Assembly: GCA_002694685.1 (NCBI GenBank) | Contig: NZMW01000001.1 | Span: 744,001-808,000 of the forward strand | DNA: 64,000 bases | Direction: 5' to 3' | Origin: Balneola sp. | GTDB taxonomy: Bacteria > Bacteroidota > Rhodothermia > Balneolales > Balneolaceae | Part shown: in pieces, positions 3,616 through 42,179 of the stretch | Numbering within the stretch: position 1 is the stretch's first letter | Layout of the letters: each line of letters opens with the position of its first letter | Notes under the pieces: model-generated | What the model was told of the DNA's origin: nothing | What the model saw: the letters and a program-made list of their open reading frames with translations, nothing else | The model's database searches: none | Translations under genes and position numbers: made by a program

Positions 3616-3643
3616 ATTAATCTCAGCATTATAAAAGGTCAGT

Positions 3644-4117: not shown

Positions 4118-4149
4118 TATTTTTTCTTTAGAATTAAAAATTTAAAATT

Positions 4150-4195: not shown

Positions 4196-4201
4196 AGTTC
4201 T

Positions 4202-11286: not shown

Positions 11287-11334
11287 TCCTTTCTACAATC
11301 TGCTCTGTACCCTACATCGTAATTAAATAAGAGG

Positions 11335-11363
11335 CCTTAATATTCTTCTTGTTAAGGTTTTTT
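11335..11363 (+). terminator. Rho-independent terminator after first giant protein
   Basis: CCTTAA and TTAAGG form a short stem with a TATTCTTCTTG loop, followed directly by six T. It lies about 50 bases after the stop at 11286, so the three giant genes are probably separate transcription units. Confidence 0.6.
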
Positions 11364-11445
11364 AATATTATATTGAATTAAGGACATTAAGGAAGCTAAA
11401 AAAAGCAACTATTTAGGTTTCAAAAATTTTCAGCAAAAAAGAATA

Positions 11446-16476: not shown

Positions 16477-16597
16477 ATTTCTGTAACATTAATTTTTATT
16501 AAGAAACTAATATTACAGTGAGTTAGAAATAGCTAATGAACCATTAGTTTAGCTTACCAAATTTTATATTCCATGCAAAATCAGTCTAATCACGCGT

Positions 16598-24874: not shown

Positions 24875-24882
24875 GTGTAGCT

Positions 24883-25470
24883 ATGAATTTGAGCATTATT
24901 ACAAGTTTTGTGATTGGTGGTTTAATGTTGCTTTCTATCCTAGCCTTTAACATGAGGCTTACTTCAAGCACTCAGGAAACCACCCTATCTACCATTAATC
25001 AACAGAAGATGGATAATCTGGTTGAGATTCTTTCCTACGACATCAATAGGATTGGCTACAATAACGACACCAGTGTAGATATGGACAATCCTATTATGAC
25101 TGCTGAAGATGATGAGATTGAATTCCAGACTTCTGACGGTAACATCCGTTGGTATATCAACACTGCTGATGAAGTTAGCACGACATCTAACCCCAATGAT
25201 TTCTATCTGTATAGAGACGATGGCCCAGGAGTAGACGCTAGGTTTCCAGTCACTTTTTTTAGTCTGAAATACTATGACAAAGATGGAGCCGAGATTTCTG
25301 ACATATCTTCCATCAGACAAAGGAATCTTAGCGTTGAGGTAAAATTAGTTGTGGAGTCTGCTGAACCTACTTCCTCAAGAAAATCATCTTCTGGGATCAG
25401 TGATACATATCATAGAACAGCGTGGAATAGAGTTTTTCATCCAACAAATATTAATAAGCCCTGGTATTAA
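24883..25470 (+). CDS. PilW-like minor pilin candidate, cassette 1 (B1)
   Basis: A 195-residue protein with an N-terminal membrane helix (MNLSIITSFVIGGLMLLSIL) and the segment LVEILSYDINRIGYNND at about residues 46-62. PilW-type minor pilins carry a similar 'L..Dlr.aGy' motif just after the helix. The rest is predicted to be beta-rich and ends in SGISDTYHRTAWNRVFHP. It starts eight bases after A1. Its paralogue at 28053 shares the helix position, the DI..IGY motif and the W-x-x-x-F-x-P-x-N ending. No prepilin peptidase site is visible. Function inferred from context. Confidence 0.55.
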   Translation: MNLSIITSFVIGGLMLLSILAFNMRLTSSTQETTLSTINQQKMDNLVEILSYDINRIGYNNDTSVDMDNPIMTAEDDEIEFQTSDGNIRWYINTADEVSTTSNPNDFYLYRDDGPGVDARFPVTFFSLKYYDKDGAEISDISSIRQRNLSVEVKLVVESAEPTSSRKSSSGISDTYHRTAWNRVFHPTNINKPWY

Positions 25471-25492
25471 ACCTAACAAATAAGGAGTTATT

Positions 25493-26866
25493 ATGGGTCG
25501 AGCAATGTTATTATTAGTGAGCGGACTTGTTATTCTTTCCGGAATAATACAGTACTCTAACAACAGAAGAGCTGAAATCTTGCCTCAGGAAACAAATGAG
25601 TACTATTATGAGCAACAGGCAAAAAATATATCCACAAGCCTGATTGATAATGCAATCCAAAATCTATTCCGGGACATGGAGTGGACTGGCAGTATTGATG
25701 CAGATGAAAATTTTAGTGGTGAAGGAAGTTTACGAATGTACAACATGGGTACCAGTGGGCTTGATACTGTCGAAAATAGTGTCCTAGAATGGGATCAATA
25801 TAAGGTACTTATTGTAAGTGAAGGTAATTATGGCGGTTATGAATCTGAAATCGAGGTTCTTTTGCAGCGTGATTCATTCTCTAAATTTTCCTATTTCACA
25901 AACGAAGAACGCCTTCCAAATAGCAATACCCAAATATTCTTCTCCACCGGCGATGTTTTAACTGGTCCTATTCATAGTAACGGAACCTTTAGTATGGCGG
26001 GATCTCCCACATTTAATGGTGATGTTAGTAGCCCAAATGATTGGGTTGGTCAAAGTGGAGACTATGATGGTGCCACTTCAGAGGAACGCCACGGGAGTGA
26101 TACTCCGCAATTTAACGGAACAGCGAACTTTGATATGGCAACGCCGCGTAACCTCCCGGGGCCAGAACAAATTGATGATTTAAAGGCTGCAGCACTTTCA
26201 GGTGGCATCACTTTTGATAGCGATGCTGAACTGGAATTTTATGTTGCTGATGATATAGGATATGTAAAAGAAACAGATACTGAGTGGCAACAGGAATGCG
26301 TATGGAAAGGCTGGTGGGACTGTGATTGGGTAGAGGTTGTAATAGGTGAAACGTCATACAACCTAGCTGATTACAACGGTTTAATTAGCGTTAACGGCAT
26401 TGCAAAAGTAAAGGGCGAAGTAAAAGGTCAGGTTACTCTTCACGCTACTCAGGAAATTGAAATAATGGGTGATATCTACTACAACCAAAACCCAACCGCA
26501 GATCCTGATGTAGTTTCAAATGATTTGATGGGATTGGTAAGTGAAGGAAATGTAATTGTTGACAGGTATGCACATCAAGATAACGGAAGTAGTGATTTAA
26601 CTATCCATGCGTCTATCATGGCTTTAGACAATGCATTTACTGTTGAAAATTATTCATCTGGAGGCAACAGAGGAGTGTTAAATATCCTGGGTGGTATCAT
26701 ACAGAAAAACCGAGGACCCGTAGGAACTTTTAATAGCTACGGAACAGCTTCAGGGTTCTCCAAAAACTATATTTATGACGAACGGTTACTAGAAACAATA
26801 CCGCCATCGTTTCCAAGAGAAAGTATCTTCACAATTGTGTATTGGAAAGAAAGAACTTCGAGCTAA
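25493..26866 (+). CDS. PilX-like minor pilin candidate with beta-helix body, cassette 1 (C1)
   Basis: A 457-residue protein starting MGRAMLLLVSGLVILSG, an N-terminal helix nearly identical to the start of the paralogue at 28658 (MGRAMLIISIGAVMALG). After a linker comes a strand-rich body with FFSTGDVLTGPIHSNGTF and LISVNGIAKVKGEVKGQV, the ladder-like repeats seen in PilX/DUF4900-type proteins that cap or prime type IV pili. GGAG-type Shine-Dalgarno (AAGGAG) lies seven bases before the ATG. A WQQECVWKGWWDCDW stretch carries two Cys that could form a disulfide. Larger than C2 by 80 residues. Function is inferred. Confidence 0.55.
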   Translation: MGRAMLLLVSGLVILSGIIQYSNNRRAEILPQETNEYYYEQQAKNISTSLIDNAIQNLFRDMEWTGSIDADENFSGEGSLRMYNMGTSGLDTVENSVLEWDQYKVLIVSEGNYGGYESEIEVLLQRDSFSKFSYFTNEERLPNSNTQIFFSTGDVLTGPIHSNGTFSMAGSPTFNGDVSSPNDWVGQSGDYDGATSEERHGSDTPQFNGTANFDMATPRNLPGPEQIDDLKAAALSGGITFDSDAELEFYVADDIGYVKETDTEWQQECVWKGWWDCDWVEVVIGETSYNLADYNGLISVNGIAKVKGEVKGQVTLHATQEIEIMGDIYYNQNPTADPDVVSNDLMGLVSEGNVIVDRYAHQDNGSSDLTIHASIMALDNAFTVENYSSGGNRGVLNILGGIIQKNRGPVGTFNSYGTASGFSKNYIYDERLLETIPPSFPRESIFTIVYWKERTSS

Positions 26867-26931
26867 TACTACTTACTTTCTCTAAACTGACTCAACAAAA
26901 CTAATTCAAAAGAACACCTATAAGTACTAAT

Positions 26932-27321
26932 ATGGCTAAGAAAACAATCTCATTATTTCTATTTACACTATTTTTTACTTTAGGCGCACAGGCTCAAACA
27001 GTGATTTTTAATGTAAATCTAAAGCCAAATTTAGAGGATAGCATGTTTGTTCCTAATCAGGACAAGATGGTTATTATAGGTAACTTCTACCCTCTTGGTG
27101 TAAATCGTTCAGTCCAGATGTTTGATGAAGCTCCAATCGACAGTATTTACACAGCTGAAATCAGGTTTGGTTCTCGCTACCAGGGACAAGTTCTTGAATA
27201 TAATTTTCAAATAGTTGATGAAAACGGCAACAAAAACACAGAAAGCATGGTCCGAAAGATCACTCTTAGTGCCGGTGAAACTGAAATCCCTCCTTTATAT
27301 TTTAACGCGTTCGCCTGGTAG
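26932..27321 (+). CDS. Small secreted protein, possibly carbohydrate-binding-like fold
   Basis: A 129-residue protein with a clean Sec signal peptide (residues 1-21, ending AQAQ). The mature part starts TVIFNVNLKPNLEDSMFVP and has VIIGNFYPLG, an arrangement reminiscent of starch-binding-like (CBM20-type) beta-sandwiches with their 'F.V......v.i.Gn...lG' pattern. The key aromatic ligand residues cannot be confirmed by eye. It sits alone between the two pilin-like cassettes on the same strand and may belong to the first transcript. It could be a tip or matrix component. Confidence 0.5.
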   Translation: MAKKTISLFLFTLFFTLGAQAQTVIFNVNLKPNLEDSMFVPNQDKMVIIGNFYPLGVNRSVQMFDEAPIDSIYTAEIRFGSRYQGQVLEYNFQIVDENGNKNTESMVRKITLSAGETEIPPLYFNAFAW

Positions 27322-27434
27322 TTTTTTTATTAAGACCAACCGCTTTATCCCTCCTCATCTTAAAGCCTGATTTGAAACTTTTTTAAAAGATTTCCAATCC
27401 CTCATAGAACAATGTTCGTATGTACAAGAACAGA

Positions 27435-27478
27435 ATTCTAATGTTAGAATCAGTCTAAAAATTTCCTAACGTTAGAAG
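27435..27478. promoter_or_regulatory. Pair of palindromic operator-like sites upstream of cassette 2
   Basis: ATTCTAATGTTAGAAT (27435-27450) has perfect 7-bp arms around a 2-base centre, and CTAACGTTAG (27466-27475) is a perfect 10-base palindrome within TTCCTAACGTTAGAAG. Their centres are 28 bases apart and lie 45-85 bases before the ATG at 27521. Two like palindromes at this position suggest a dimeric repressor or activator site for the second cassette. No regulator is identified. Confidence 0.45.
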
Positions 27479-27520
27479 TTTTTAATAATATTGTTTTGAA
27501 AATAAATTAAACCAAAATCT

Positions 27521-28051
27521 ATGAGCGGTTACACTGAAGTTTTATATGTCATCTTTGCTATGACCATCGTTTCTACCATGGCTCTCAATGCCAACCGGTT
27601 TATTCAAGTCAACAATTATTCAATGGTTGAGGGACAGCTCGAAGAGCAGGTAATTGCCTACTCCCAGAATATCATTGAAGAATCTCGAGCATTGGCTTTC
27701 GATGAAGCCACTACTTACGACGCAACTGGAAATAGTACGGTTCCAGTTTACATTCCTAATGGATTCTCAAGCCTTGGAACCGATGGCGAAGCAGGCAGAA
27801 CCCAATTTGATGATTTCGATGATTTTAATGGATTTTCTGAGACTGTTAGTATCGCTGGCGTAAAGTACGATGTTAATGTAGTTGTTGAATATGTAGTTAC
27901 AAGTGATTTTGAGACTTACACTAAGTCATTCAACAAGTCTACCTTAAAAAGAATCACGGTTAACATGGAGTCCGATTTTTTAAGGAAGAATCAGAATTCT
28001 GATAACACTAATTACAACTTTAGCTTTATAAGAAGCTACTACGCGGATTAA
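27521..28051 (+). CDS. PilV-like minor pilin candidate, cassette 2 (A2)
   Basis: A 176-residue protein laid out like A1 at 24449: an N-terminal hydrophobic helix (MSGYTEVLYVIFAMTIVSTM), then QLEEQVIAYSQNIIEESRAL in place of A1's 'ISIAQDEIDDIR', then a beta-rich globular part ending in an aromatic-rich tail (NFSFIRSYYAD against A1's MEYIKTYFKD). It has no classical prepilin leader. It is the first gene of the second cassette and ends one base before B2. I call it a paralogue of A1 on position, layout and tail motif. Confidence 0.5.
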   Translation: MSGYTEVLYVIFAMTIVSTMALNANRFIQVNNYSMVEGQLEEQVIAYSQNIIEESRALAFDEATTYDATGNSTVPVYIPNGFSSLGTDGEAGRTQFDDFDDFNGFSETVSIAGVKYDVNVVVEYVVTSDFETYTKSFNKSTLKRITVNMESDFLRKNQNSDNTNYNFSFIRSYYAD

Positions 28052-28052
28052 T

Positions 28053-28649
28053 ATGAATTTCGGAATTATTATCAGCTACATCATTGCCGGTTTTCTCTCC
28101 ATTACTATTCTCATGGTTACTTATAACGTGGGGTTCAGTAATCAGGAGGTAACTACCACTTTGATAAAAAAGACACACTCCAGAAGTATTCAGGACATCA
28201 TTGTCAATGACATTCCAAAAATCGGATATCAAAATAAAACAGTTCTTGCCAACAAGTTTGTAACTGCAGATAGTGATGAGATTTCCTTTTACAGTGATTT
28301 AAATAACGATGGTACTATAAACCAAATTACCTGGAAATATACTGACCTCCCTTCTCCTGGATCAAAAAATCCCAATGACAATATTTTGAGACGCACAGTT
28401 GACGGAGATGAAACTGAGATTAATGTTGGAGTTACAAGTTTCACTATTCGTTACTACGATGAGTATGGTTCTACAACGCCAATGGCTACACCAATAAGCA
28501 GTTCAAACTTTGATGATATTATACAAATTGAGGTCGAGCTGGAACTTCAAAGTAGTTATGATCTGAGCTATAGAAACTCTGATGATGAAAACTACATTAC
28601 AACAAGCTGGCAAAAACGATTTTCTCCAGTCAATCTTAGACCAAATTAG
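28053..28649 (+). CDS. PilW-like minor pilin candidate, cassette 2 (B2)
   Basis: A 198-residue protein, paralogous to B1: membrane helix MNFGIIISYIIAGFLSITIL, then IQDIIVNDIPKIGYQNK matching B1's DINRIGYNND, and the end TTSWQKRFSPVNLRPN matching B1's HRTAWNRVFHPTNI. The body contains DSDEISFYSDLNNDG, matching B1's EDDEIEFQTSDG. Start and preceding stop are separated by one base, so translation is probably coupled. Likely a membrane-anchored pilin-like subunit. Confidence 0.55.
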   Translation: MNFGIIISYIIAGFLSITILMVTYNVGFSNQEVTTTLIKKTHSRSIQDIIVNDIPKIGYQNKTVLANKFVTADSDEISFYSDLNNDGTINQITWKYTDLPSPGSKNPNDNILRRTVDGDETEINVGVTSFTIRYYDEYGSTTPMATPISSSNFDDIIQIEVELELQSSYDLSYRNSDDENYITTSWQKRFSPVNLRPN

Positions 28650-28657
28650 GTGAATTT

Positions 28658-29791
28658 ATGGGACGAGCAATGTTAATTATTAGTATCGGAGCTGTAATGG
28701 CACTTGGTATCCTCCAACTAGGGATTCAAGGGCAACGCACAGGAATTGTGCAAAATTCAGCTTCTTCCGCATACGAAGTTCAAATACGTAACAAAGCATT
28801 TACAGCCGCACAGCTTGCGATGGAACGTATTAATGAAAGCGGTGGAACATGGCATCCAGAAAAGAACAGCCCTTGGGTTGAAGATATTGACGGTGACTCC
28901 ATCTCTCTTTTCTATGATCTATCTACCGGTTCTACAGGTGGTACTTTTTCATTACTAGAAGGCGATACTGTTGAAATCAATGCAACCTCCTGGTATCAGG
29001 ATCCAAATTCAGGCGATCGTAAGGAAATCAACATTGTAACATCCTACGTTAAAACGGCCATGCACTTTGTGCCGGAATTTCAGTCTGCCATGGCTTTCGC
29101 CGTAGATGCTGATGACTTTTCTTTCGCTGCAAGCGGCAGTGCACTTATCTCCGGAAACGACGCAAGTGGTACCTGCCCGTCTAAACCGGCAGTATCAGTT
29201 CGGGATAATGAATCAGCAGATAAGATTACCGGCGCGGACAATCTTTTCGAATATCTCTCAGGTGGAGATAACTCAGATCACTTGGAAAGTGACTCAACAG
29301 CCATTGGCGTAGATCCTAATCTTTCCTATGAGCCAGTTGATGATTTAGTGGCAAGGCTTTCTCAACTTAGCGATGTGATTAAGATATCAGGCAACTACAA
29401 AGGCACCATGGGATCGGCTGATAACCCCGGTGTATTTTTTGTTGAAGATTACGCCAAACTTACCGGTGGCATCTCTGAAGGATTCGGTATCATGGTGGTT
29501 CGAAGTGGCGGTGAACTTGAGTATGAGGGAGAACTGTCGGTGGCCGGTAATTTTAAGTTTAATGGCTTAGTCATCTTTGAAAATGCCTACAATATGACCG
29601 GACGTGGAACACCTCGAATTAATGGATCTGTATTAGTAGGAAAAGCTAATGATACCAATGAACGACTGGACATCGATCTTGGCGGTACTATAGACATTCA
29701 GTATGATTGTACAGCTGAGAAATATGCTCAGCTTGCCTCCGCTTCTCGTTTAGGCCAGAACCGTTACAAGCGCCTCAGTACCTACGAATAG
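28658..29791 (+). CDS. PilX-like minor pilin candidate with beta-helix body, cassette 2 (C2)
   Basis: A 377-residue protein with the same first residues as C1 (MGRAML) and a single N-terminal helix. The C-terminal half is a strand ladder: DNPGVFFVEDYAKLTGGISE, GIMVVRSGGELEYEGELSV, NFKFNGLVIFENA and GTPRINGSVLVGKA. This is the order of strands seen in PilX-family pilus assembly proteins ('GNFTFNGLIIV...G.P.INGAVLV'). It lies eight bases after B2 with AGGTG before the ATG. It is the last gene of the cassette; a 209-base gap follows. Confidence 0.6.
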   Translation: MGRAMLIISIGAVMALGILQLGIQGQRTGIVQNSASSAYEVQIRNKAFTAAQLAMERINESGGTWHPEKNSPWVEDIDGDSISLFYDLSTGSTGGTFSLLEGDTVEINATSWYQDPNSGDRKEINIVTSYVKTAMHFVPEFQSAMAFAVDADDFSFAASGSALISGNDASGTCPSKPAVSVRDNESADKITGADNLFEYLSGGDNSDHLESDSTAIGVDPNLSYEPVDDLVARLSQLSDVIKISGNYKGTMGSADNPGVFFVEDYAKLTGGISEGFGIMVVRSGGELEYEGELSVAGNFKFNGLVIFENAYNMTGRGTPRINGSVLVGKANDTNERLDIDLGGTIDIQYDCTAEKYAQLASASRLGQNRYKRLSTYE

Positions 29792-30000
29792 TTTTAATTC
29801 TAGTCTTTATTAGCTTTTTATAAATCTCCTACTCAACTTATTACGTACTGATAGTTGGAAAGGAGTTTTATTTTGTATTCTCCTCTTTGTACAGCCCGTT
29901 ACAATAGTCTAATTAAAATATATTAACTGGTATTAGTAAGCGATAAGCAAGAACTTTAATGCATAGCAATCTAGGTTTCATCCGTTTATACATTTCATTT

Positions 30001-30504
30001 ATGAAATACTCTTTAATAGCAATCTTTATAATTGTTTCAAGCTTTTCTGCTTTTGCCCAGATCGATGATAGTAACAGCATAACTGCAAATATCAATGTTA
30101 GTGCTGAGGTCATTCAGTCCATAGAATTGATTACTGTGAATACAATGCAGTTTGGAAATGCACAACCAGGACAAAGAGAAATTTATGTCAATCCTGTAAA
30201 TAGCTTAAATGCCGGCTACATGATTGCAGTTGGAACCCCCGATGCTGAATTCAGACTTAACTACCTGCCAGAACTTGAACTCACTCAGATTCAAGGACAA
30301 GGTACTCTCAATTTTACCTACGAAATATCCGGTAATTCGGAAGAGAATCAATCTACTTCTGAATTATTAGAACTCGATAATCGTAATATTCGGTTTAACA
30401 ACGAAGGTCGATATTATATTTGGGTAGGCGGAAGAGTAAACATTGAAAATGCTCCTCCTGGAAATTATGAGGGAGATTTCACGATTGAAATAGATTACAT
30501 ATGA
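30001..30504 (+). CDS. DUF4402-like fimbrial subunit 1
   Basis: The ATG at 30001 gives a 167-residue protein with an immediate signal peptide (MKYSLIAIFIIVSSFSAFAQ); an in-frame ATG 42 bases upstream would add a non-signal extension and is rejected. The mature protein shows ITANINVSAEVIQSIELI, then TMQFGNAQPGQ and a C-terminal strand GDFTIEIDYI. The order 'strand - FG - ... - [VI]-x-[VI]-x-Y at the end' is that of DUF4402/Csu-type subunits assembled by chaperone-usher systems. It overlaps the next gene by 4 bases (ATGA). Confidence 0.65.
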   Translation: MKYSLIAIFIIVSSFSAFAQIDDSNSITANINVSAEVIQSIELITVNTMQFGNAQPGQREIYVNPVNSLNAGYMIAVGTPDAEFRLNYLPELELTQIQGQGTLNFTYEISGNSEENQSTSELLELDNRNIRFNNEGRYYIWVGGRVNIENAPPGNYEGDFTIEIDYI

Positions 30505-31151
30505 TCATTAACAAATATAGAAATTGCCCTGAGATCAAGCCTTTCCAAATGAAAGGCTTTGGGTGTTTTATATTTTTTATGGTGACTAGTTTTCTGACAG
30601 TATTCAATCCCTCTCTTGCTGCACAAGAAATAGATTTTGGTGATTTCAGCAGTAAGTACAGTGTAAGTATTTCTGAACTTATTCCAGCTGAAGACTTGGC
30701 TTTTGGCATGGTCATTCAGAATGAAGGACTAAAAACGATAGATCTTATTGATGCCAAGGTACTTATGATTGAAGGAGTCAAATATCTGGATGTGATTGTA
30801 GATGTAACTGCTGATAACTATTTATACCTTGATACCGATATTGCCTGTAATGGCAGTAATACAAATTGCATTCCCTTTACACTTCAGGCTGCTTATGCCA
30901 ACAGAGGAAATAATAATACTAACGAAGCTATCTTAATGCAGACTGCTTCTAATGTAGCTTCAGCGCAGTTTCCTATTGAGGCTCGCGGCAACCGACCACC
31001 CGGACCGCCTCCCACTCCAGTTTATGAAGGTTATAACCCCGCCCTTTATAATGAGACTGCATACTTATACATTTATGGATCCCTGAATATTGGAAATGTA
31101 GATGCCGGAAGTTACTCAGGTGAAATTACTATTACGGTTAGCTATGACTAA
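30501..31151 (+). CDS. DUF4402-like fimbrial subunit 2
   Basis: A 216-residue protein with a hydrophobic signal region (residues 20-41, ending SLAAQ) after an unusually long polar N-terminus of about 18 residues; the methionine at residue 17 (MKGFGCFIFFMVTSF) is an alternative, more conventional start. The mature chain has LAFGMVIQNEGLKTIDL near its start and ends GEITITVSYD. One Cys pair (IACNGSNTNCIPF) may form a disulfide, and a proline-rich loop RPPGPPPTP lies at about residues 167-175. Overlaps both neighbours (4 and 8 bases). Likely a fimbrial subunit. Confidence 0.6.
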   Translation: MIINKYRNCPEIKPFQMKGFGCFIFFMVTSFLTVFNPSLAAQEIDFGDFSSKYSVSISELIPAEDLAFGMVIQNEGLKTIDLIDAKVLMIEGVKYLDVIVDVTADNYLYLDTDIACNGSNTNCIPFTLQAAYANRGNNNTNEAILMQTASNVASAQFPIEARGNRPPGPPPTPVYEGYNPALYNETAYLYIYGSLNIGNVDAGSYSGEITITVSYD

Positions 31152-31665
31152 GCGATTTGTTTCCATATTTCTTTTTGCTTTAAGCCTGTCGCCCATCGCT
31201 CATGCCCAGTATATTAACCTCCAGCTAAAAATTGAGCCCGAACTTAGTGCAACTATAGAGCAAGATTTAAATTTTGGTACTCAAGTAACTAATTCGGGTA
31301 GAACTGAAATTCAGCTTGGGGATGTAAATATGGGTGTTTTCAGCATCAAAGCCTTCCATACCCAGAATGTCTATTTAAACCTGCACTACCCTAATGCATT
31401 GTCAAATGATAATCCTGCAATTGACTCTGATATCCCGTTAGAGCTGAATTTGGCTTATAACAATACCGGTACTAACAATGCAAATAACTCTAATCCTGTA
31501 CCGTCAAATGGGGGCTTTATTTCCATTCACGAATACACAGCTCTGGAAAGCAGAAATGATGTCTGGAAACAGATGTATCTATACGTTTATGGGGCTATAG
31601 AAATTGGAAACATCCCAAATGGTGTTTACACCGGTGATATCGTTCTTAGTGTGGATTACGACTAA
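31144..31665 (+). CDS. DUF4402-like fimbrial subunit 3
   Basis: Starting at the ATG at 31144 gives 173 residues with a signal peptide (MTKRFVSIFLFALSLSPIAHAQ) and eight bases of overlap with the preceding stop. A longer frame upstream would bury the signal peptide. The mature chain has DLNFGTQVTNSGRTEIQLGD, nearly in register with subunit 2 (LAFGMVIQNEGLKTIDL), and the two share LYVYGAIEIGNIPNGVYTGD against LYIYGSLNIGNVDAGSYSGE near the C-terminus, so they are paralogues. The end is IVLSVDYD. Probably a minor fimbrial component. Confidence 0.65.
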   Translation: MTKRFVSIFLFALSLSPIAHAQYINLQLKIEPELSATIEQDLNFGTQVTNSGRTEIQLGDVNMGVFSIKAFHTQNVYLNLHYPNALSNDNPAIDSDIPLELNLAYNNTGTNNANNSNPVPSNGGFISIHEYTALESRNDVWKQMYLYVYGAIEIGNIPNGVYTGDIVLSVDYD

Positions 31666-32951: not shown

Positions 32952-33461
32952 ATGAAAACTTTTAAAAACCTTCTATCCGTTCTTGCAATAGCCGCTGTCT
33001 TTTCAGCCGGTGCTTATGCCCAACAAGACGTCCAAGTCTCTGCAATAGTTCAATCAACCTTAGCTTTTAGCGCTGTTAATAATGTAACATTCGGCGTTAT
33101 TACACAAAATACTGAAGCAGTACAGGGAGCTAATGGAAACACTTCTTTAACTCCAGCAAATAATACTAATGCATCATCTGGTTCTGTTACAGTTACAGGT
33201 AATGCTGGTGTTTCCATTGCTATCAGCTATAATACTGGTGTTCAATTGTCTGATGGAACTAATACAGTAGATTTTACTCCTGAGGTTATGGTTGGTTCAA
33301 CTACAATAGCTCAGTCAGGTACAAATGTAACATTAAGTGGAACAACTGGTCTAGGTACAGCACTTGTGGAAATTGGTGGTACCCTTGATGCAATAGCTAC
33401 TGCAGGTACTTATTCAACTACCAGCGGTACTCCTATTACTCTAACGGTTGCTTACAATTAA
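32952..33461 (+). CDS. DUF4402 protein, likely major fimbrial subunit
   Basis: A 169-residue exported protein: signal peptide MKTFKNLLSVLAIAAVFSAG (to about residue 24, AYAQ), then VQVSAIVQSTLAFSAVNN, NVTFGVITQNTE and a C-terminal strand ITLTVAYN. This order is that of DUF4402/Csu-type subunits. The composition (Thr, Ser, Asn, Gly, Ala, almost no charge, no Cys) fits a robust structural pilin. It is followed by a strong terminator and preceded by its own upstream region, while the chaperone and usher genes start 153 bases later. A separate, strongly terminated gene just before the assembly genes is what is expected of a major subunit expressed at higher level. Confidence 0.75.
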   Translation: MKTFKNLLSVLAIAAVFSAGAYAQQDVQVSAIVQSTLAFSAVNNVTFGVITQNTEAVQGANGNTSLTPANNTNASSGSVTVTGNAGVSIAISYNTGVQLSDGTNTVDFTPEVMVGSTTIAQSGTNVTLSGTTGLGTALVEIGGTLDAIATAGTYSTTSGTPITLTVAYN

Positions 33462-33614: not shown

Positions 33615-34451
33615 ATGAAACGACTTATTACGGCATTATTTCTATTTGGAAGTCTATTTACTTGTTCAATTCAGGCTCAAGTGACTATCGCTCCCACAAA
33701 TATGTTTTTAGATAATCAAACAAGGTTTGGGACGTATATGGTTATCAACAATTCGAATACTCCTCAAGAGGTCTCAGTTGACTTTTTCTTTGGATATGCA
33801 GTTACAGATGAAAACGGTGAAAGACAAAATGTATCAGGTGCTGAGGATTTAAAAGGCACTCATTCTATTGCTGATAACGTTCGTGCTTTTCCTAGAAATT
33901 TTATTCTACAATCAGGTCAAAGACAAGTTGTAAGGATTAGATTAACTCCATCGAATGATTTACAAGACGGAACATATTGGACTAGAATCAAAACTCATTC
34001 TACACCTGAAAGTCCACCTGTTGAAATAGGATCAAATGAAAATGTTACGGCAAGTGTGGGGATTAATATTGAGCAAATTACTGGTTTGTTTTATAAAAAT
34101 GGTGATGTTACTACAGGTATTAAAGTAGATGGTATAAGAAGTTCTTTTCAGGGAGATGGCAGTGAACAATTAATTGTACTTACAGATTTTCAAAGAACGG
34201 GAAATTCTCCTTTTCTAGGTTCTATTACTACTATTTTAAAAAATCAAAATGGAGAAACCATGGCTCAGGGATTCCGATCAACGACCTTATATTTTGATGG
34301 CACTCAAAAAGAAACCTTGGATATTTCCGGATTACCTTCTGGCGAATACACCATTCAGGTTCATTTTGAAACACGGAGAAGCGATATTTCTCAAAGCGAT
34401 CTTGTCCAAATGCAACCCGTCACATCAACTAACACTGTAATCATACCTTAA
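33615..34451 (+). CDS. PapD-like periplasmic fimbrial chaperone
   Basis: Periplasmic chaperones of this type hold fimbrial subunits by donor-strand complementation and hand them to the usher. The 278-residue protein has a signal peptide (to about residue 22, SIQAQ), then VTIAPTNMFLDNQTRFGTYM and INNSNTPQEVSVDFFF, the first strands of a PapD-like Ig domain. PRNFILQSGQRQVVRIRL at about residues 95-112 corresponds to the 'P..f.L.pg..Q.VRi' chaperone motif. A second Ig-like domain follows (about 140-278). It precedes the usher by one base. Sequence is divergent from proteobacterial chaperones, so the subunit-binding residues cannot be named with confidence. Confidence 0.75.
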   Translation: MKRLITALFLFGSLFTCSIQAQVTIAPTNMFLDNQTRFGTYMVINNSNTPQEVSVDFFFGYAVTDENGERQNVSGAEDLKGTHSIADNVRAFPRNFILQSGQRQVVRIRLTPSNDLQDGTYWTRIKTHSTPESPPVEIGSNENVTASVGINIEQITGLFYKNGDVTTGIKVDGIRSSFQGDGSEQLIVLTDFQRTGNSPFLGSITTILKNQNGETMAQGFRSTTLYFDGTQKETLDISGLPSGEYTIQVHFETRRSDISQSDLVQMQPVTSTNTVIIP

Positions 34452-34452
34452 G

Positions 34453-37440
34453 GTGCCTATTTTTTGGAAATCTTCAATATCAATCATAACAATTATTGTT
34501 TTATGTTTTGGGATTTCCGAAAAGAATCTACAAGCGCAAGATAATAATTCTGATGAATTCGAAGTCTACCTCGATTTCCGTCACAGAGGAGTTATAAATT
34601 CCGTAGTTATCTCCTACTATAAAAACGATGAATTTTACCTTCCGGTTTCTGAGCTCTTCTCTCTTTTCAACATCGACCATACCGTTAATGGTCTTTCCAT
34701 TGATGGATACTTTGGTACCGAACGAATTCCCTACCAAATAAATCTCCAGTCTAACAAAATTAGCTTTGATGAAACTACCATCATATTAAACGCTAATGAT
34801 TATCTCATAAAGGAAATCGACTCCTATTTAAGAGCCGATATATTGTATGAAGCATTCGGTCTCAACTTCACCATAGACTTTAATAACCTGACGCTGAATC
34901 TGGAAACCGACCGAGAACTACCCGCTGTTCAGCAAGCAATAAGACAGCAACGACGACAGCTTGCAGATGCAAATCGATTTCAACAAGAACAATATGATCT
35001 CAGATACGGTAGACAACGCCCTTTTTTAGATGGTGGATTTCTGGACTATAATCTATCCGCTAATGTTTCTTCTGTACAAAATGTATATAATTTCAATTCT
35101 AATATTGGGTTGCAACTATATGGTGGAGATGTTCAGGGAGTGGTATTTGGAAGTTATTCGCAAGACTATAGTAATTTTGCTACTGATAATTTGCGGTGGA
35201 GCTATAGGTACCGAGACCAATCTTGGTTAACAAATCTTACCATAGGCCAAACCACTACCGATGGTTTTGCAAGAAACACTTATACAGGAATCAGACTTTC
35301 TAATGAGCCCATAGAGCCACGCCGACTTTTTGATGAGTATGTGGTTCAGGGAGAAACGATTCCTCAATCTGAAGTAGAATTATATATGAACAATGCTCTT
35401 GTTGACTTTCAACAGGCGGATGAGTTAGGAAATTACCGTTTTCTCACTCCTATTACCTATGGTTCCTCTCAGCTTGATTTAAAAATTTATGGCCCTACTG
35501 GACAGATTATTGAACGCTCCAATCGTATTCAGGTTCCTTTTACTTTTCAGCCAGAAGGGGTTTTTAATTATTCGCTAAATGCCGGACGACTTGATAATCC
35601 AATTTTTGGCGAAACCTCACAAGATTTCACTGCACAGGGAAATGGCGCTTATGGTATCACTGACTGGCTAACCGCTAAAGCCGGTGTAGAATATTATCAG
35701 GGTTACCATGATGCACTACCCACTTTTACAACAAGCTTTTCGTCACGTATCGCCTCAAATTATATTCTAACCCTTGAAGCTGCCAGTGAAGCTTATTACA
35801 GGGGATTGCTCAGCGTGATCTACCCCAATTCAGCAAGTATTAATTTTGACTATACTGATTTCAACAGTGGTTTTAGTATTTATAATCCCTCTAATGATGA
35901 TAAACGATTTGTGGCGAGTGTCTTCTATCCATTTAATTTTTGGGGTCTACCCTTCAATGTACGTGCATCTACCTTTTCACGAATTCGCCCCACTACAAAC
36001 AATACAACAGTGCGATTTGATGCCAACTCCAGAATTGGAAAACTAAATATACGGCTCGGTTATAGTGATCGTTTTGTTGGAGATATTGATCTCTTTAATC
36101 CATCTAATACTGCTTACGTTGAAAGCTCAGCAACTTATAATATTTCCAGAAACAGGAACCTCCCCTCCTATTTAAGAGGAGTCTTTTTGAGAACTCAAAT
36201 GCGCTATCAACCAACTCTCAATCAGCTTGAGTCAACTGAATTTTTGATTTCCCAGAACGTTTTTGATCAAGGTCGATTTCAACTTTCATTGGGAAGAAAT
36301 TTTACAGGAGAGTATAATACGGTCCGCTTTAGCTTAGTGATTGATTTTAATAAGGCACGATCAAGTTCAACATTTAGCAACATCCGTGGAAGCAATAATT
36401 TTAGTCAAAATGTAAGAGGTTCTATAGGGTACGATTCCAACTACAATAATTTTATTTTTACCAGCCGAGATCAAGTTGGGCGCTCAGGTACTGCGGTACA
36501 ACTTTTTGTTGATAATAATAGTGATGGTACTTTCAACGAAGGCGATGACCGTATTGAAGGAAATGCTGTTCGCGTACAAAGGTCAGGTGCAACAAGTACT
36601 ACCAAAAATGGAGTACTTTATTACACCCAGATGCAGCCTTACTTCTACTATAACATGGAGATTAATAAGGCCAATATTAAGAACCCAATGTTGGTTCCTG
36701 AATTCGAAAAGTTTGGGTTAATCAGCGATCCAAACCGTTTCAAAAAAGTAGAAATACCCTTCTACATGTCAGGAGTTATGGAAGGGATTGTAGAGCGGCA
36801 GTTGGCCAATGGGAAAAAGACAGGAGTAGCAGGGTTAAGAGTTCTAGTCAGGCAGAAAGACGGTGATTACAACAAAGAGTTACGATCGTTCTCAGACGGT
36901 AGTTTTTATGAGTATGAGATACCCCCGGGAGAATATGTGCTTGAAGTGGATTCCACGCAGCTTAATATTCTGGAGAGCAAATCGCTCCCGGCGAAGATCG
37001 AGTTTGAGGTAGAAGCGATTCCAGAAGGTGACTTTATTGAAGGACTTCAGTTCTTACTCGTCCCAAAAGACTATCAACCTCCTGCTGAGGCTCCACTAAC
37101 GGCTGAGGCAGTTACTGAAGAAATTAAAACGAATGATGAGATTTTGAATTTTGAAAAATCTTTGTCGGAAGGTGTGGATGAATCCCTTAGACTTATTGTA
37201 AAAGCACAAAATGCTTTTTACGATAAGGAAATTAAAAAAGCTCTAACATTTGTTGAGCAATCATTAGAAATTTTTGAGACAGCCCAGGGATATGCCCTGA
37301 AAGGCAGTTTACATTACCTGATTGGGGAAAGAGATCAAGCGGAAAAATTTTGGGAGTTAGCTGTACGTCTAAATCCTGATATCTATATTCCTGATATTGA
37401 AATGCTTGATACATTGATCACAACTGAACTTGTAGAGTAG
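34453..37440 (+). CDS. Usher-like outer-membrane assembly protein with C-terminal TPR
   Basis: Starts with GTG one base after the chaperone stop. Of the 995 residues, 1-28 are a signal peptide. About 30-155 resemble an usher N-terminal domain (VYLDFRHRGVINSVVISYY). A beta-barrel of Tyr/Phe/Asn-rich strands spans about 195-690, interrupted near 300-375 by a usher-type plug or middle domain: VELYMNNALVDFQ, GNYRFLTPITYG, LKIYGPTGQIIERS. About 676-770 hold LFVDNNSDGTFNEGDDRI and a strand-rich domain, and about 772-880 a carboxypeptidase-regulatory-like sandwich. About 905-990 form a TPR-like helical tail that is unusual for an usher and is homologous to the lipoprotein at 39318. I infer subunit translocation plus docking through the TPR. 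Confidence 0.75.
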   Translation: MPIFWKSSISIITIIVLCFGISEKNLQAQDNNSDEFEVYLDFRHRGVINSVVISYYKNDEFYLPVSELFSLFNIDHTVNGLSIDGYFGTERIPYQINLQSNKISFDETTIILNANDYLIKEIDSYLRADILYEAFGLNFTIDFNNLTLNLETDRELPAVQQAIRQQRRQLADANRFQQEQYDLRYGRQRPFLDGGFLDYNLSANVSSVQNVYNFNSNIGLQLYGGDVQGVVFGSYSQDYSNFATDNLRWSYRYRDQSWLTNLTIGQTTTDGFARNTYTGIRLSNEPIEPRRLFDEYVVQGETIPQSEVELYMNNALVDFQQADELGNYRFLTPITYGSSQLDLKIYGPTGQIIERSNRIQVPFTFQPEGVFNYSLNAGRLDNPIFGETSQDFTAQGNGAYGITDWLTAKAGVEYYQGYHDALPTFTTSFSSRIASNYILTLEAASEAYYRGLLSVIYPNSASINFDYTDFNSGFSIYNPSNDDKRFVASVFYPFNFWGLPFNVRASTFSRIRPTTNNTTVRFDANSRIGKLNIRLGYSDRFVGDIDLFNPSNTAYVESSATYNISRNRNLPSYLRGVFLRTQMRYQPTLNQLESTEFLISQNVFDQGRFQLSLGRNFTGEYNTVRFSLVIDFNKARSSSTFSNIRGSNNFSQNVRGSIGYDSNYNNFIFTSRDQVGRSGTAVQLFVDNNSDGTFNEGDDRIEGNAVRVQRSGATSTTKNGVLYYTQMQPYFYYNMEINKANIKNPMLVPEFEKFGLISDPNRFKKVEIPFYMSGVMEGIVERQLANGKKTGVAGLRVLVRQKDGDYNKELRSFSDGSFYEYEIPPGEYVLEVDSTQLNILESKSLPAKIEFEVEAIPEGDFIEGLQFLLVPKDYQPPAEAPLTAEAVTEEIKTNDEILNFEKSLSEGVDESLRLIVKAQNAFYDKEIKKALTFVEQSLEIFETAQGYALKGSLHYLIGERDQAEKFWELAVRLNPDIYIPDIEMLDTLITTELVE

Positions 37441-37449
37441 ATATTATTT

Positions 37450-39318
37450 ATGGCTTTAGGGAAGTTTATTCGCGATAGATTCTACTATTTACCGCGGAAG
37501 GAAATCAAATTATTACGAACCGGATTTTCCTGTACTTCGCTGTGTCATTTCATTTTTTTGCTCGTTTTCTTTTCCACCCTCTTCTTTGGTAGTCATGGTG
37601 TACAAGCACAGGGGAATTCGATAGGAACGACCGAATCTTTAGAGCTTCGTATCGCATCTCTGGAGCAAAAGTACGATGCTCAAATCATTAGCATTATGTC
37701 TAACTACTTTGACCAGCAGAAGTTCTTTGTTGATGTTAATGTTAATGCTGACATGATTACAGAAACGTACTCTACCACTCAGAACCAGGTTGTCAGAGAG
37801 CGTCAACAAAACCTGGTAATGCCCGGTCTCCCCTTCCTTCCACAAGAGAATTTACAGGCTAACGGCCTTGGGGAACCTTCAACTGAACAAATTATCAGTG
37901 AGAACATCCTGAGAATGCTCAGATTGAATAATCTTAGAATTCGGGTTTACGCTGACTCCTCATTTACCCAACAAGAAATTGAATTCATGTCTTTAATTGC
38001 AGGCATTGCCGCGAAAGTGGATGAGTCGAGAGGAGACTTAGTCACTGTTGATCAGTTAAAGATGCCGGATTTCAGCTTTAAATCTGAAGGTCAAAAGATC
38101 GAGCTTATCCAGCCTGCTAATGATACCTTAATGGCGTCATTAGAGCAGTATTTGCCCGGTTTTATCCTATTTCTACTTTTTGCGATAACATTGTTGCTTA
38201 GTCGTTTTAAGGGACCTAGCGATGCTGATGATTCTTACAGAAGACAGGCAGAAAGAGATAGTATAAGAAGAGAGATAGCTACCCCTGATTTCAGCCCTGA
38301 TAAAACGCAAACTTCAGAGCCAAAAAATAACACCTCTACATCTTCTACACTAGATGAGCTGGCAGATTCATTTTTCAAATCTCCTAAAGAAATCGCTTTA
38401 TTATTTGAGTACTGGCTTGAAGAAGATCCATCGAATGGTCCTAAAAGATCAGCCAAAATTGTTGACTGTATCGATAAACATATGCTGAAGCTACTGAGGA
38501 AGGAATTAGATCCAGATAAATACCAGCTGATAGAGCAGGAATTGGAACAGCTATCGCCAATGAGCATGGAAGAAAAAAGAGAGCTTGCTGGGGAATTTAT
38601 TCAAGCCTTATACTCAAAGAGAGCAGCGTCTTCTTCAAATGAAAAACACAGTCAGCTTGACCTTTTTAAATTCCTGAGACATTTAAGTTCCCATCAGGTT
38701 GTATCATTATTAAATGGTGAAGACAGGAATACATCTGCATTGGTCATGGATTACCTTCCCAATGAAAAAGCATCTGATGTCTTTGATTTACTTAGCCAGG
38801 ATAGAACAGCAGAAATCATGCTGGGTATGACAAACCTTAATCAGCTTTCTTATCAGCAACACAAGGATATCTCCACCCACCTTTTTGATAAAGCTACCGA
38901 TATCATAGAAATAAATAGAGAACAGCAAATTGGCGCTGATAGCATTCTTCCTATACTTCAAAGACTCCCACTTAAAGACCAGAGATCTTACATCGAGCAG
39001 TTGATATCTATGGGATCTCCGGTTGGTAATTTTCTCCAAAATAAGTTTACTACTGTCGAGCAAATCCCCAAAATTGACAAAAGCATACTTAGGGATTCCT
39101 TACAAAACATAGATACTGCTACCCTGTTGGCTGCCTCCAAAGGTTTTGATCAGGATATTATTGATGCTCTTTTTTCAGTCCGACCTACAAGGGAAAGAAA
39201 GTTGTTACAGATTGAGTTAGAACAAAATCCGCAGTTTAGTGAAAAACAAGTCGAACATGCGCAGAAAACGATAATGAGGGCCATAAGACAAACCCTCACT
39301 AACCAAAACTCAAATTGA
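37450..39318 (+). CDS. FliF(C-terminal)-FliG fusion protein, flagellar-type rotor
   Basis: A 622-residue fusion. Residues 31-50 are a signal/anchor helix and about 60-230 are periplasmic. The segments KFFVDVNVNADMITETYSTT (91-110) and SFTQQEIEFMSLIAGIAAKV followed by DESRGDLVTV (171-200) match the third ring-building region and pre-membrane 'RGD.v.V' motif of FliF. A helix at 235-252 returns to the cytoplasm. About 300-395 resemble the FliG N domain, about 405-480 the middle domain (SALVMDYLPNEKASDVFDLL, with EDRN in place of EHPQ), and 495-615 the torque domain (IPKIDKSILRDSLQ, then VEHAQKTIMRAI). Of the E. coli torque residues, Arg281 and Asp289 align with Arg581 and Glu589, while Asp288 and Arg297 align with Ile588 and Ser597. 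The N-terminal ring domains of FliF are missing. Confidence 0.8.
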   Translation: MALGKFIRDRFYYLPRKEIKLLRTGFSCTSLCHFIFLLVFFSTLFFGSHGVQAQGNSIGTTESLELRIASLEQKYDAQIISIMSNYFDQQKFFVDVNVNADMITETYSTTQNQVVRERQQNLVMPGLPFLPQENLQANGLGEPSTEQIISENILRMLRLNNLRIRVYADSSFTQQEIEFMSLIAGIAAKVDESRGDLVTVDQLKMPDFSFKSEGQKIELIQPANDTLMASLEQYLPGFILFLLFAITLLLSRFKGPSDADDSYRRQAERDSIRREIATPDFSPDKTQTSEPKNNTSTSSTLDELADSFFKSPKEIALLFEYWLEEDPSNGPKRSAKIVDCIDKHMLKLLRKELDPDKYQLIEQELEQLSPMSMEEKRELAGEFIQALYSKRAASSSNEKHSQLDLFKFLRHLSSHQVVSLLNGEDRNTSALVMDYLPNEKASDVFDLLSQDRTAEIMLGMTNLNQLSYQQHKDISTHLFDKATDIIEINREQQIGADSILPILQRLPLKDQRSYIEQLISMGSPVGNFLQNKFTTVEQIPKIDKSILRDSLQNIDTATLLAASKGFDQDIIDALFSVRPTRERKLLQIELEQNPQFSEKQVEHAQKTIMRAIRQTLTNQNSN

Positions 39319-39836
39319 TGATGAAGCTATACAACATCTTTTTATTCTTCGGCCTGCTTGTAGCGCTTTCTGCCTGTAGCTCATCAAATAAAGTAAGTGA
39401 AGATGCTTCTGTTGAGGAACCTGAACAGGAAGCGGTTCAGCAACAAAGCAGTGAGGTGGCTGACACGGACAGCGAAGAAGATAAGAGGAAAGCAGAGCTT
39501 GAAGAGCTGTACAAAGAAGAATTAAAAAAGACTTATCAGGCCAAAGCAAATGGAGTAACTACCTACTACATTTTAGCCCAGCAGCAGTTTCATCAGGCCC
39601 AGTACCAGAATGCACTCTATCTTATTAACAAAGCCTTGGCAATCAAAGAAACAGCAGACGTTTATGCTCTAAAAGGGAATATTTTTCTGGGATTAGGATC
39701 CAAAGAGAAGTTTACTGAAAACTGGAAAAAAGCATTAGAAATGGATGCGAATATTCCCATCCCCATATTACCTTTCATAACCAGTGAACTGCAAAATCAG
39801 GGTTTGGTTGATGCAGATTTTAAACGAAATTTTTAG
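39318..39836 (+). CDS. TPR-containing lipoprotein of the motor operon
   Basis: The ATG at 39318 overlaps the preceding stop by one base (TGATG); a second ATG follows directly and a TTG precedes it. The 172-residue protein has a lipoprotein signal with lipobox LSAC and the cysteine at about residue 20, then an acidic linker (EDASVEEPEQEAVQQQ). A TPR-like helical repeat region (about 75-160) contains YYILAQQQFHQAQYQNALYL and DVYALKGNIFLGLGSKEKF. The same pattern ends the usher at 34453 (AQNAFYDKEIKKALTFVEQS, GYALKGSLHYLIGERDQAEK). It may be an outer-membrane or periplasmic pilotin-like factor for the usher or motor. Confidence 0.7.
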   Translation: MMKLYNIFLFFGLLVALSACSSSNKVSEDASVEEPEQEAVQQQSSEVADTDSEEDKRKAELEELYKEELKKTYQAKANGVTTYYILAQQQFHQAQYQNALYLINKALAIKETADVYALKGNIFLGLGSKEKFTENWKKALEMDANIPIPILPFITSELQNQGLVDADFKRNF

Positions 39837-39849
39837 GTAGGCTGATTCT

Positions 39850-40653
39850 ATGCGTACATCTATTCTAAATATTTTAGGCTTTTGTATCTCTGCTGTAATT
39901 CTTGCGTGGGGAGCTTTAATTATAACCGGCTTTACCACCTATGATGTTATTCCCTCAGGATTAGAGTTTTTGAATTTACCCAGCCTTGCTATCGTTTTTG
40001 GAGGGATTTCAGCTTCTGTATTCATCAGCTTTACTTTTTGGAATGTAATGAAGGCTGTAAGGCAGTGTTTCCGCCTTTTTTCTTACAGTAACATCGATAA
40101 TGAGCTGCTTGATGAGGATGTAAAACATATCTTAGATTGGCAGAAACGCATTCAAGAGAATAAAATCAGAGCTATCTCAGAACTTAGTAATGAATATGAA
40201 GGTCAGTTTGAAGGGTATCTATTTTCTGTGCTAGACACGAATTATTCGTCGGAAGAACTTCGCGAACTTGGCGAGGCAAATATTGAAGAAAGCTACATAC
40301 GGCAGCAAAAGATAAATGAAATCATAGCAAGCATGGGTAAGTCAGCTCCGGTCTTTGGTATGCTTGGCACCCTGTTTGGGTTGATCGTAATTTTGTCAGG
40401 ATTCAATGAGATTGAATCCTTATTAGCAGGATTAGCGGCCGCCTTAATGACAACGCTTTATGGTATTTTAATTGGGAACTTCATCTTTAACCCAATGGCT
40501 AAGAAGATGAATAACATTGCCTCTCTTCAGTATTTTAGAGAAAAGCTTATTCTGGAAGGAATTCTACTTATCGAACAACAAAAAACATCTCTTCAGATAT
40601 ACGACAAACTTCAGGCTCACATGAATCGAAGCAGCCAAAAATTCAACTTCTAA
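39850..40653 (+). CDS. motA: MotA-like stator subunit
   Basis: A 267-residue four-helix inner-membrane protein of the MotA family, the ion-channel stator part that exerts force on FliG. Helices lie at about residues 8-28, 43-64, 165-185 and 190-215. GKSAPVFGMLGTLFGLIVIL (163-182) is the MotA signature; Pro167 and Pro215 (NFIFNPMAKKM) correspond to the two conserved prolines needed for torque. MTTLYGILIGN and ILEGILLIEQQ also match the family. The large cytoplasmic loop (65-160) is highly charged, as expected for contact with FliG; DEDVKHILDWQKRIQENKIR lies in it. It starts 13 bases after the lipoprotein gene. Confidence 0.88.
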   Translation: MRTSILNILGFCISAVILAWGALIITGFTTYDVIPSGLEFLNLPSLAIVFGGISASVFISFTFWNVMKAVRQCFRLFSYSNIDNELLDEDVKHILDWQKRIQENKIRAISELSNEYEGQFEGYLFSVLDTNYSSEELRELGEANIEESYIRQQKINEIIASMGKSAPVFGMLGTLFGLIVILSGFNEIESLLAGLAAALMTTLYGILIGNFIFNPMAKKMNNIASLQYFREKLILEGILLIEQQKTSLQIYDKLQAHMNRSSQKFNF

Positions 40654-40670
40654 ATCCTGAACATCCTGCT

Positions 40671-42179
40671 TTGAGTAAACAGCCTCCTTCACAGAATAAT
40701 AAATCCCTTTATCCGAATGAAATTTTGGATACTGAAGATGATAATAGCTGGCAGGTAAGCTACCTGGATATCATCACTATTATTCTTGGCTTTTTAATTA
40801 TTCTGCTCTCGCTTTCAGAGTTTACCAGCGTTACCAGCTTAACTTCCGTATCACAATTATTTAAGTCATCTGTTCAGGAGACAGAATTTCTTACAACTCC
40901 TATTGAAGAAATTCAAAGTGAACTTGAAGCCTCTTTGTCTGGTGATCTTAAAAGTGGTGAAATTGAAATAATCCGTGATTTGAATGACCTCCTGATTAGA
41001 TTCAGCAGTGATGATCTCTACCGGTCCGGGAGCGCTACGCTACAGCAAGGTGCTTTACCCCTTTTTGACCGGGTTATTTCTGCTATTAAGTCCAACCGTT
41101 TTAATGACTTTAATGTAGAAGTTGAAGGACACACTGATAACACCCCTATTTCATCTTCTGCCTATCCGTCTAATTGGGAGCTCTCAACCACTAGGGCCAC
41201 AAATGTCGTAAAATACTTTAGGGGGATGGGTATTGAAGAAGGCAGGCTCAAAGCTTCAGGTTATGCTGATTCAAAGCCACTGGTTCCAAATGAAGATGCA
41301 TCAGGAAATTCAATTCCAAGAAACAAGGCCTTAAATCGCAGAGTAGATATCAGGCTATACTATGCTTCAGTTCCCAAGCACGATTCCACTAGTTCCATCT
41401 CTCCTGTTCTTGCGGACAATAATAACTGCAGGTATTCTGTACAGATTGGAGGATTTCAATCATTTAACAACAGCTTTAGTCTTGCAAATGACGCTTCAAG
41501 AAAAACTAACTACTCATTCGAAATAACCTTTAATAATAATTTGTTTTCAGTGAGATCTGAGCCTCGGAATTCCCTGGAAGATGCTCTCAAAATTCATAAA
41601 GAACTTGCTAGTTACACAGGTGATGACGCCATTGGTTTGATTCATCAGTGCTATGAAGATACAGGTCTTCGCCCCGACCCTATTCGTTATCAAATACAGG
41701 TGGCAGCGTTTCAGAATAAAAGCAATGCAGAAAGATATATTTCAGAAATCACTTCAAACCTAACTGTCTTAGCAAGCATATCGTCCACAGATAACGGTTC
41801 CCATAAAGTTATGCTTGGGCCTTACCAAAGTCCTTTCACTGCTTCCGAGAAACTGGCTGAGTTTAAGAAGTCAGGCTTACCGGAGGGCATTTTTATAAAA
41901 CCCGTCATAGAAAGTATTCTGCCATACTCATTTAATTTTAGAATTCAGTTGGCAAAATTCGAGAACCGTAATGACGCTGAAGATTTATCCCAGAGTATAG
42001 CTTCCCTTATGGGTTTACAAACGGAAATATCAGAGGGAGAAAACGAGGCAGTATATCTTCTTACAGGTGAGTTTCAAGATTGGAAAAATGCTAAACAGGT
42101 GTTTAATGATTTAAGGAACAGCAGTTATGACTTATCACCTGTGCTCTATTTGCTGGAGCAAGTTAAGCCGCCAATTTAG
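40671..42179 (+). CDS. motB: MotB-like stator subunit with OmpA and SPOR-like domains
   Basis: Start is TTG at 40671, 17 bases after motA; no in-frame ATG precedes the membrane helix. Residues 27-50 (WQVSYLDIITIILGFLII) form the single membrane helix, with Asp33 at the place of the essential proton/ion-carrying Asp of MotB. The OmpA-like peptidoglycan-binding domain covers about 95-232: VEVEGHTDNTPI, NWELSTTRATNVVKYF and NKALNRRVDIRLYY. The protein is 502 residues, well beyond the usual 300, because of about three SPOR-like repeats in the C-terminal half: CRYSVQIGGFQSFN (253), IRYQIQVAAFQNKSNAE (about 338) and FNFRIQLAKFENRNDAE (about 422). SPOR domains bind denuded peptidoglycan. Stator anchoring is the likely role. 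No regulation visible; the gene ends six bases from the convergent rpoN stop. Confidence 0.88.
   Translation: MSKQPPSQNNKSLYPNEILDTEDDNSWQVSYLDIITIILGFLIILLSLSEFTSVTSLTSVSQLFKSSVQETEFLTTPIEEIQSELEASLSGDLKSGEIEIIRDLNDLLIRFSSDDLYRSGSATLQQGALPLFDRVISAIKSNRFNDFNVEVEGHTDNTPISSSAYPSNWELSTTRATNVVKYFRGMGIEEGRLKASGYADSKPLVPNEDASGNSIPRNKALNRRVDIRLYYASVPKHDSTSSISPVLADNNNCRYSVQIGGFQSFNNSFSLANDASRKTNYSFEITFNNNLFSVRSEPRNSLEDALKIHKELASYTGDDAIGLIHQCYEDTGLRPDPIRYQIQVAAFQNKSNAERYISEITSNLTVLASISSTDNGSHKVMLGPYQSPFTASEKLAEFKKSGLPEGIFIKPVIESILPYSFNFRIQLAKFENRNDAEDLSQSIASLMGLQTEISEGENEAVYLLTGEFQDWKNAKQVFNDLRNSSYDLSPVLYLLEQVKPPI

Follow-up and report, generated by a model that had tools for sequence, protein, structure and literature searches.

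We describe a locus of the order Balneolales in which chaperone-usher pilus genes are joined to genes for a flagellar-type rotor and stator. That the usher and the motor form a real, conserved and non-flagellar unit we consider very nearly certain, and we give even chances to the further reading that the locus encodes a non-flagellar rotary motor built into a chaperone-usher pilus machine. The motor probably acts mechanically on the usher or the fibre; that it rotates the fibre, as we infer, has at best an even chance. Our analysis suggests that these marine members of the Balneolales turn or pull surface fibres by means of an ion-driven motor.

Organization of the usher-motor locus

The sequence analysed, referred to here as the window, is a 64,000-nt stretch from Balneola sp. 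(contig NZMW01000001.1, positions 744,001-808,000, forward strand). Between positions 33615 and 42179 (ORF coordinates), six ORFs follow one another on the plus strand and encode, in order, a putative periplasmic chaperone (33615..34451), an outer-membrane usher with a C-terminal TPR tail (34453..37440), a FliF/FliG fusion (FliFG; 37450..39318), a TPR lipoprotein with the lipobox LSAC (39315..39836), MotA (39850..40653) and MotB (40671..42179). All six were found in the order, at the coordinates and on the strand given in an earlier note on this DNA. The gaps of 1 to 17 bases are as described there (1 between chaperone and usher, 9 between usher and FliFG, 13 between TPR lipoprotein and MotA and 17 between MotA and MotB), and the FliFG and TPR ORFs overlap by a single base if the latter starts at ATG 39318 and by 4 bases with the start TTG 39315.

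Further upstream on the same strand lie genes for candidate fibre subunits, one of which has a DUF4402 match just above the cut-off, the others being weak. The product of 29959..30504 (subunit a), a putative fibre subunit, is the one that passes (Pfam DUF4402, 25.6 bits against a cut-off of 25.2), and its gene is found upstream of the usher in motor-bearing and motorless loci alike. The DUF4402-like subunits b (30501..31151; 17 bits) and c (31102..31665; very weak match) are both encoded at syntenic positions, the former in type A loci. Adjoining the chaperone gene, 32952..33461 encodes a putative major fibre subunit with a signal peptide read from its sequence; a Pfam search of this product gave no match, and a small secreted ORF occupies the same place in related loci too.

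Two other gene groups lie in this part of the window. Two sets of short proteins encoded within 24449-29791 have an N-terminal hydrophobic helix and resemble minor type IV pilin-like proteins; NCBIfam gave no match for those tested, and the sets adjoin the usher locus in motor-bearing and motorless genomes, where they are conserved. A run of three giant secreted proteins (1227, 1676 and 2519 aa) is encoded within 7603-24157, and the C-terminus of each reads like a sorting tail for type IX secretion.

A predicted FimD/PapC-like usher with a TPR tail

The 995-aa usher has no Pfam Usher match and no NCBIfam or PDB-profile match. Despite this, in an AlphaFold model built, like that of the fusion, from an alignment of homologues, residues 175-868 superpose on FimD and PapC (Foldseek E 7e-30; VIA Z 24), and by this predicted fold the product of 34453..37440 is a FimD/PapC-like usher, as had been proposed. 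The TPR tail claimed for it was likewise recovered: the last 100 residues form TPR-like helices in the model, and Pfam TPR_2 matches above its cut-off. Junction and tail together occupy 37081..37437, and it is at about residue 877 that sequence identity with motorless ushers breaks off. The tail is kin to the TPR lipoprotein of the same locus (E 5.6e-15), which itself has TPR matches, and to TPR proteins of usher-less operons, termed type B below (E 1e-17 to 1e-22).

The product of 33615..34451 matched neither HMMs nor PDB profiles nor a FimC profile. Because of its position and a conserved motif, FPR..L..GQ.Q.VR..DGtyw, we assign it as the putative chaperone of the usher pair. One related usher ORF, that of G151 (L097, 3893-8494), opens with some 500 Pro/Ser-rich residues in near-repeats; this may be a repetitive region that the ORF reads through, and the true start probably lies later.

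The rotor and stator resemble those of the flagellum

The 622-aa fusion carries all three FliG domains (38407..39309), with Pfam matches above the cut-offs for FliG_C (1.5e-11), FliG_M (1.7e-10) and FliG_N (1.8e-7), further matches to PDB profiles of FliG and, in the AlphaFold model, superposition of residues ~329-620 on FliG with Z up to 16. Its FliF part gave no Pfam, NCBIfam or PDB-profile match and is seen only by predicted structure, in which residues 60-206 (37627..38067) superpose on the periplasmic RBM3/beta-collar domain of FliF (residues 229-438, Z ~13). Only about 60 residues precede this domain, too few for RBM1 and RBM2, which in flagellar FliF surround the export gate. The earlier assignment of 37450-39318 to FliF and FliG is therefore upheld for FliG and, on the FliF side, holds for RBM3/collar and transmembrane segment and not for a whole FliF (RBM1-2-3). 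Within the FliG part, R581 and E589 take the positions of E. coli FliG R281 and D289, and both are invariant in the type A alignment (11 rows).

The two stator genes were also correctly named, since MotA_ExbB, OmpA and SPOR all pass their curated cut-offs. MotA (Pfam MotA_ExbB 7.2e-17) matches NCBIfam MotP at 2.9e-33 against 0.0096-0.09 or weaker for ExbB, aligns over the full MotA/PomA cytoplasmic loop and has two conserved proline motifs, SPVFGMLGT and F.P; judged by its sequence it is of the flagellar rather than the ExbB/TolQ type. The positions of R90 and E98 align inexactly in the window protein, with charged residues within one or two positions. MotB has a transmembrane helix with D33, then an OmpA-like domain (Pfam 1.7e-15) and then SPOR repeats (4.6e-19, in three stretches; tail at 41421..42161), and the ion-binding Asp is kept in 29/29 non-flagellar MotBs aligned. 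OmpA domains bind peptidoglycan, and SPOR domains bind its glycan strands. As the MotB Asp, the MotA loop and proline motifs and the FliG charges are all kept, FliFG-MotAB looks functional as a motor.

The usher-linked motor is distinct from the flagellum

The genome from which the window comes also has a flagellar gene cluster, some 55-90 kb away on the same contig, and the earlier note had considered that a flagellar set elsewhere in the genome might explain the genes at 33615-42179. Such a set is present, but it has its own FliF, FliG, FliM, MotA and MotB, as well as FlhA, and does not explain them. FlhA is absent from the genomes of 10/15 complete loci (two of them single-contig assemblies), carriers g5, g17 and two f2 among those that lack it, and no FliM/FliN (FliMN_C) domain was found in any of the 11 FlhA-less carriers (the ten and G078), against two such domains in the window genome. 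In a FliG tree, non-flagellar and flagellar FliG fall on opposite sides of a long branch (support 100/99), and all usher-linked FliFGs, the divergent G023 copy included, form one clade (99/94); some long branches meet in this tree, so that deep placements are unsure. We therefore give almost no credence to the view that these are degenerate or accessory flagellar genes that by chance lie beside a pilus operon: the nearby flagellar cluster is what speaks for it, and the comparative data, including the exchange of domains with the usher described below, already contradict it.

The FliM-docking motif EHPQ reads EDRN in the fusion and is kept in the window genome's flagellar FliG. With neither FliM/FliN nor EHPQ, flagellar-type direction switching is probably absent from the motor. 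The lack of FliM/FliN also weighs on the idea of a mechanosensor, in which the stator-rotor ring would read tension on an adhesive fibre and report surface contact. We hold this rather improbable: flagellar stators do respond to load and a DUF4402 fibre is plausibly adhesive, but among the loci read the cassette contained no recognisable signalling gene.

The usher-motor order recurs across Balneolales

The complete order usher-FliFG-TPR-MotA-MotB was found in 15 loci of the order Balneolales, besides partial ones at contig ends (window genome, G051, G024, G005, G034, G026, G028, G010, G017, G053, G037, G381, G207, G196 and G151, the last from another family of the order). The named carriers include the isolate Balneola sp. 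EhC07, which is in culture, lacks flagella and has the cassette at locus L118. Within the family, the fusion is conserved at 37-43% identity in one fixed gene order: three DUF4402-like genes, a small secreted protein, chaperone, usher, FliFG, TPR lipoprotein, MotA and MotB. The usher and motor genes thus do occur together in other genomes, and chance adjacency is ruled out, since 15 loci of divergent sequence share the order.

Motorless loci reveal an exchange of TPR and SPOR domains

In four genus-mates, G003, G022, G032 and G040, a motorless form of this pilus locus is found in an identical gene setting (DUF4402 genes, chaperone and usher, followed by rpoN, YkgJ-like, biotinyl-domain and MurA-like genes), and in another genus G043 and G049 also have the corresponding pilus locus without a motor. 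Having genus-mates with and without a motor at one pilus locus amounts to a natural experiment. L137-L148 represent the motorless version, whose usher has SPOR repeats at its own C-terminus. One motorless usher match, at G052:C33:124021-126630, has two internal stops and is a possible pseudogene.

The usher barrel of motorless G032 is 80% identical to that of the window, against 66% for motor-bearing G051. Identity between the window and G032 ushers stops at about residue 877, after which motorless ushers run into SPOR repeats. The TPR tail is present in 14/14 ushers of motor or FliF-only loci and in 0/27 motorless ushers (Fisher 3e-11, counting sequences without regard to relatedness). The C-terminal 250 residues of MotB, in turn, are homologous to the SPOR tail of motorless ushers (BLAST 9e-25; profile-profile E 1.4e-33); the two tails are of equal extent, and both end a few bases before rpoN. 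A generic SPOR likeness was ruled out, since a search of the whole genomes of seven motorless relatives with the MotB tail matched only the usher tail in each. Since barrel identity ends at the TPR junction and the SPOR tail is now on MotB, the cassette (TPR tail, FliFG, TPR lipoprotein, MotA and MotB core) fits precisely into the join between the usher barrel and its former tail.

On the usher-barrel tree, the motor/motorless state has switched at least six (6-7) times, a minimum that the tree sets without giving the direction (gain, loss or recombination), and the placing of all motor ushers in one clade is rejected (p-AU 5e-43). Because of these state changes and this rejection, the cassette is, judged by sequence comparison, exchangeable. 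The earlier note had read the locus as a rotor-stator unit that powers or twists the fibre; one conserved non-flagellar unit stands, and on the coupling itself, the gain of TPR by the usher and the passage of SPOR from usher to MotB argue for a direct mechanical link. Such an exchange would be expected had the usher been released from the wall and linked to the rotor, with the anchor passing to the stator.

The same conserved unit and TPR tail would also fit a motor that powers fibre assembly, extension or retraction and not rotation, with ion flow making the passive usher an energised gate, and type IX secretion (T9SS), in which a proton-driven motor is coupled to secretion at the outer membrane, offers a precedent (PMC9127263). 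We consider such a gate unlikely: the motorless sister loci share chaperone, subunits and barrel, so that assembly evidently works without a motor, and a FliF/FliG rotor is built for torque.

FliF-only loci and an usher-less FliFG operon

Two loci, L047 (G045; 3358-4606) and L098 (the second locus of G151; 7931-12966), encode a TPR-tailed usher, a FliF-RBM3/TM protein and a TPR protein, with no FliG and no MotAB at the locus. L098 has two further peculiarities: its TPR protein has a SPOR-like C-terminal end, and next to its chaperone gene, which is shortened, there is a transposase-like ORF. As both loci keep usher, FliF and TPR protein without FliG/MotAB, the usher may have the FliF collar or ring itself as its partner, and FliF may have a structural role as a static platform. 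Such FliF-only derivatives would also suit the view that FliF/FliG and MotAB together serve as a wall-anchored platform that positions or holds the usher, with rotation unused. The ion-path Asp and the FliG torque charges, however, are conserved over deep divergence and would be needless for a platform, and we regard this view as distinctly improbable.

A second arrangement, the type B operon, lacks an usher and encodes, in varying order, FliFG, a 360-aa secreted protein, a TPR lipoprotein, MotA and MotB (L049-L063, L099-L102 and L119-L123). Its hosts are Balneolaceae, another Bacteroidota family, Fibrobacteres and one KSB1 genome; a full-length FliFG fusion was found in 8/121 Fibrobacteres genomes sampled. 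The 360-aa protein has a beta-rich C-terminus and gave no Pfam or PDB-profile match. In the FliG tree, usher-linked motors branch beside the Balneolaceae type B members, and type B operons may represent a broader, undescribed family of FliG motors outside the flagellum.

Proposed mechanism

We propose that FliFG would oligomerise into an inner-membrane ring and that MotAB, anchored to peptidoglycan by its OmpA and SPOR domains, would use ion flow to drive FliG, as the flagellar stator does. Torque would reach the outer-membrane usher by way of the periplasmic RBM3 collar and the TPR elements (usher tail and lipoprotein), and the usher, because it has lost its wall-binding tail, could then turn together with the DUF4402-type fibre. 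In the static form the usher itself has the SPOR tail; in the motor form SPOR is on the stator and the motor-family TPR on the usher, as would be expected with a stator fixed to the wall and an usher moving with the rotor. In geometry, a single usher might sit on the axis, or several ushers might be carried round on the ring; the MS-ring of a flagellum is much broader than a single usher, so that one-to-one coaxial coupling is geometrically doubtful. To the full proposal, a new ion-driven rotary organelle in which a minimal FliF/FliG-MotAB motor rotates chaperone-usher fibres and is exchangeable with a static, wall-binding usher tail, with type B as its wider family, we give a little less than an even chance.

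Comparison with known systems

FliG is known from the flagellar rotor, whereas ushers are known as passive gates. The earlier note knew of no system of this make-up, and open-access PMC text likewise yielded no description of an usher-motor system or of the type B operon. A 2025 survey found that 11% of non-motile species have rotor proteins (FliG, FliM or FliN) but no filament proteins, and it raised an alternative function as a possibility (PMC12199754); a 2022 review counted three ion-driven rotary motors (PMC9127263), and a 2025 study placed flagellar-type stators together in a single group of flagellar ion transporters (PMC12505986). The usher-motor locus offers a concrete, testable function for rotor proteins that lack a filament. 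A FliFG-usher machine, if true, would be a new use of a known rotary motor and would bear on the modular reuse of rotors and stators.

With the flagellum the locus shares the FliF RBM3/collar and transmembrane segment, FliG N-M-C, the PomA-type MotA loop, the MotB Asp and OmpA domain and the FliG torque charges. Unlike the flagellum, it lacks FliF RBM1-2 and EHPQ, has FliF fused to FliG, SPOR on MotB and linkage to an usher, and has no FliM/FliN, export gate, rod, hook or filament. With the chaperone-usher pathway of type 1 and P pili (FimD/PapC) it has in common, by predicted fold, the usher barrel and the domains that follow it, together with adjacent chaperone-like and small secreted subunit genes; it differs in an usher too distant for Pfam Usher that bears a TPR tail and is accompanied by motor genes. 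To our knowledge, the ushers described so far work without an energy source and lack both a TPR tail and motor genes. MotA is set apart from ExbBD/TolQR transporters by its full MotA/PomA cytoplasmic loop. The type B operon shares the FliFG fusion, TPR lipoprotein, MotA and MotB but, in place of usher and pilins, has the 360-aa secreted protein. The T9SS/gliding motor GldLM resembles the locus as an ion-driven Bacteroidota motor tied to outer-membrane machinery; it has, as far as we know, no FliF/FliG rotor and no usher. The proteins of the cassette match MotAB and FliG.
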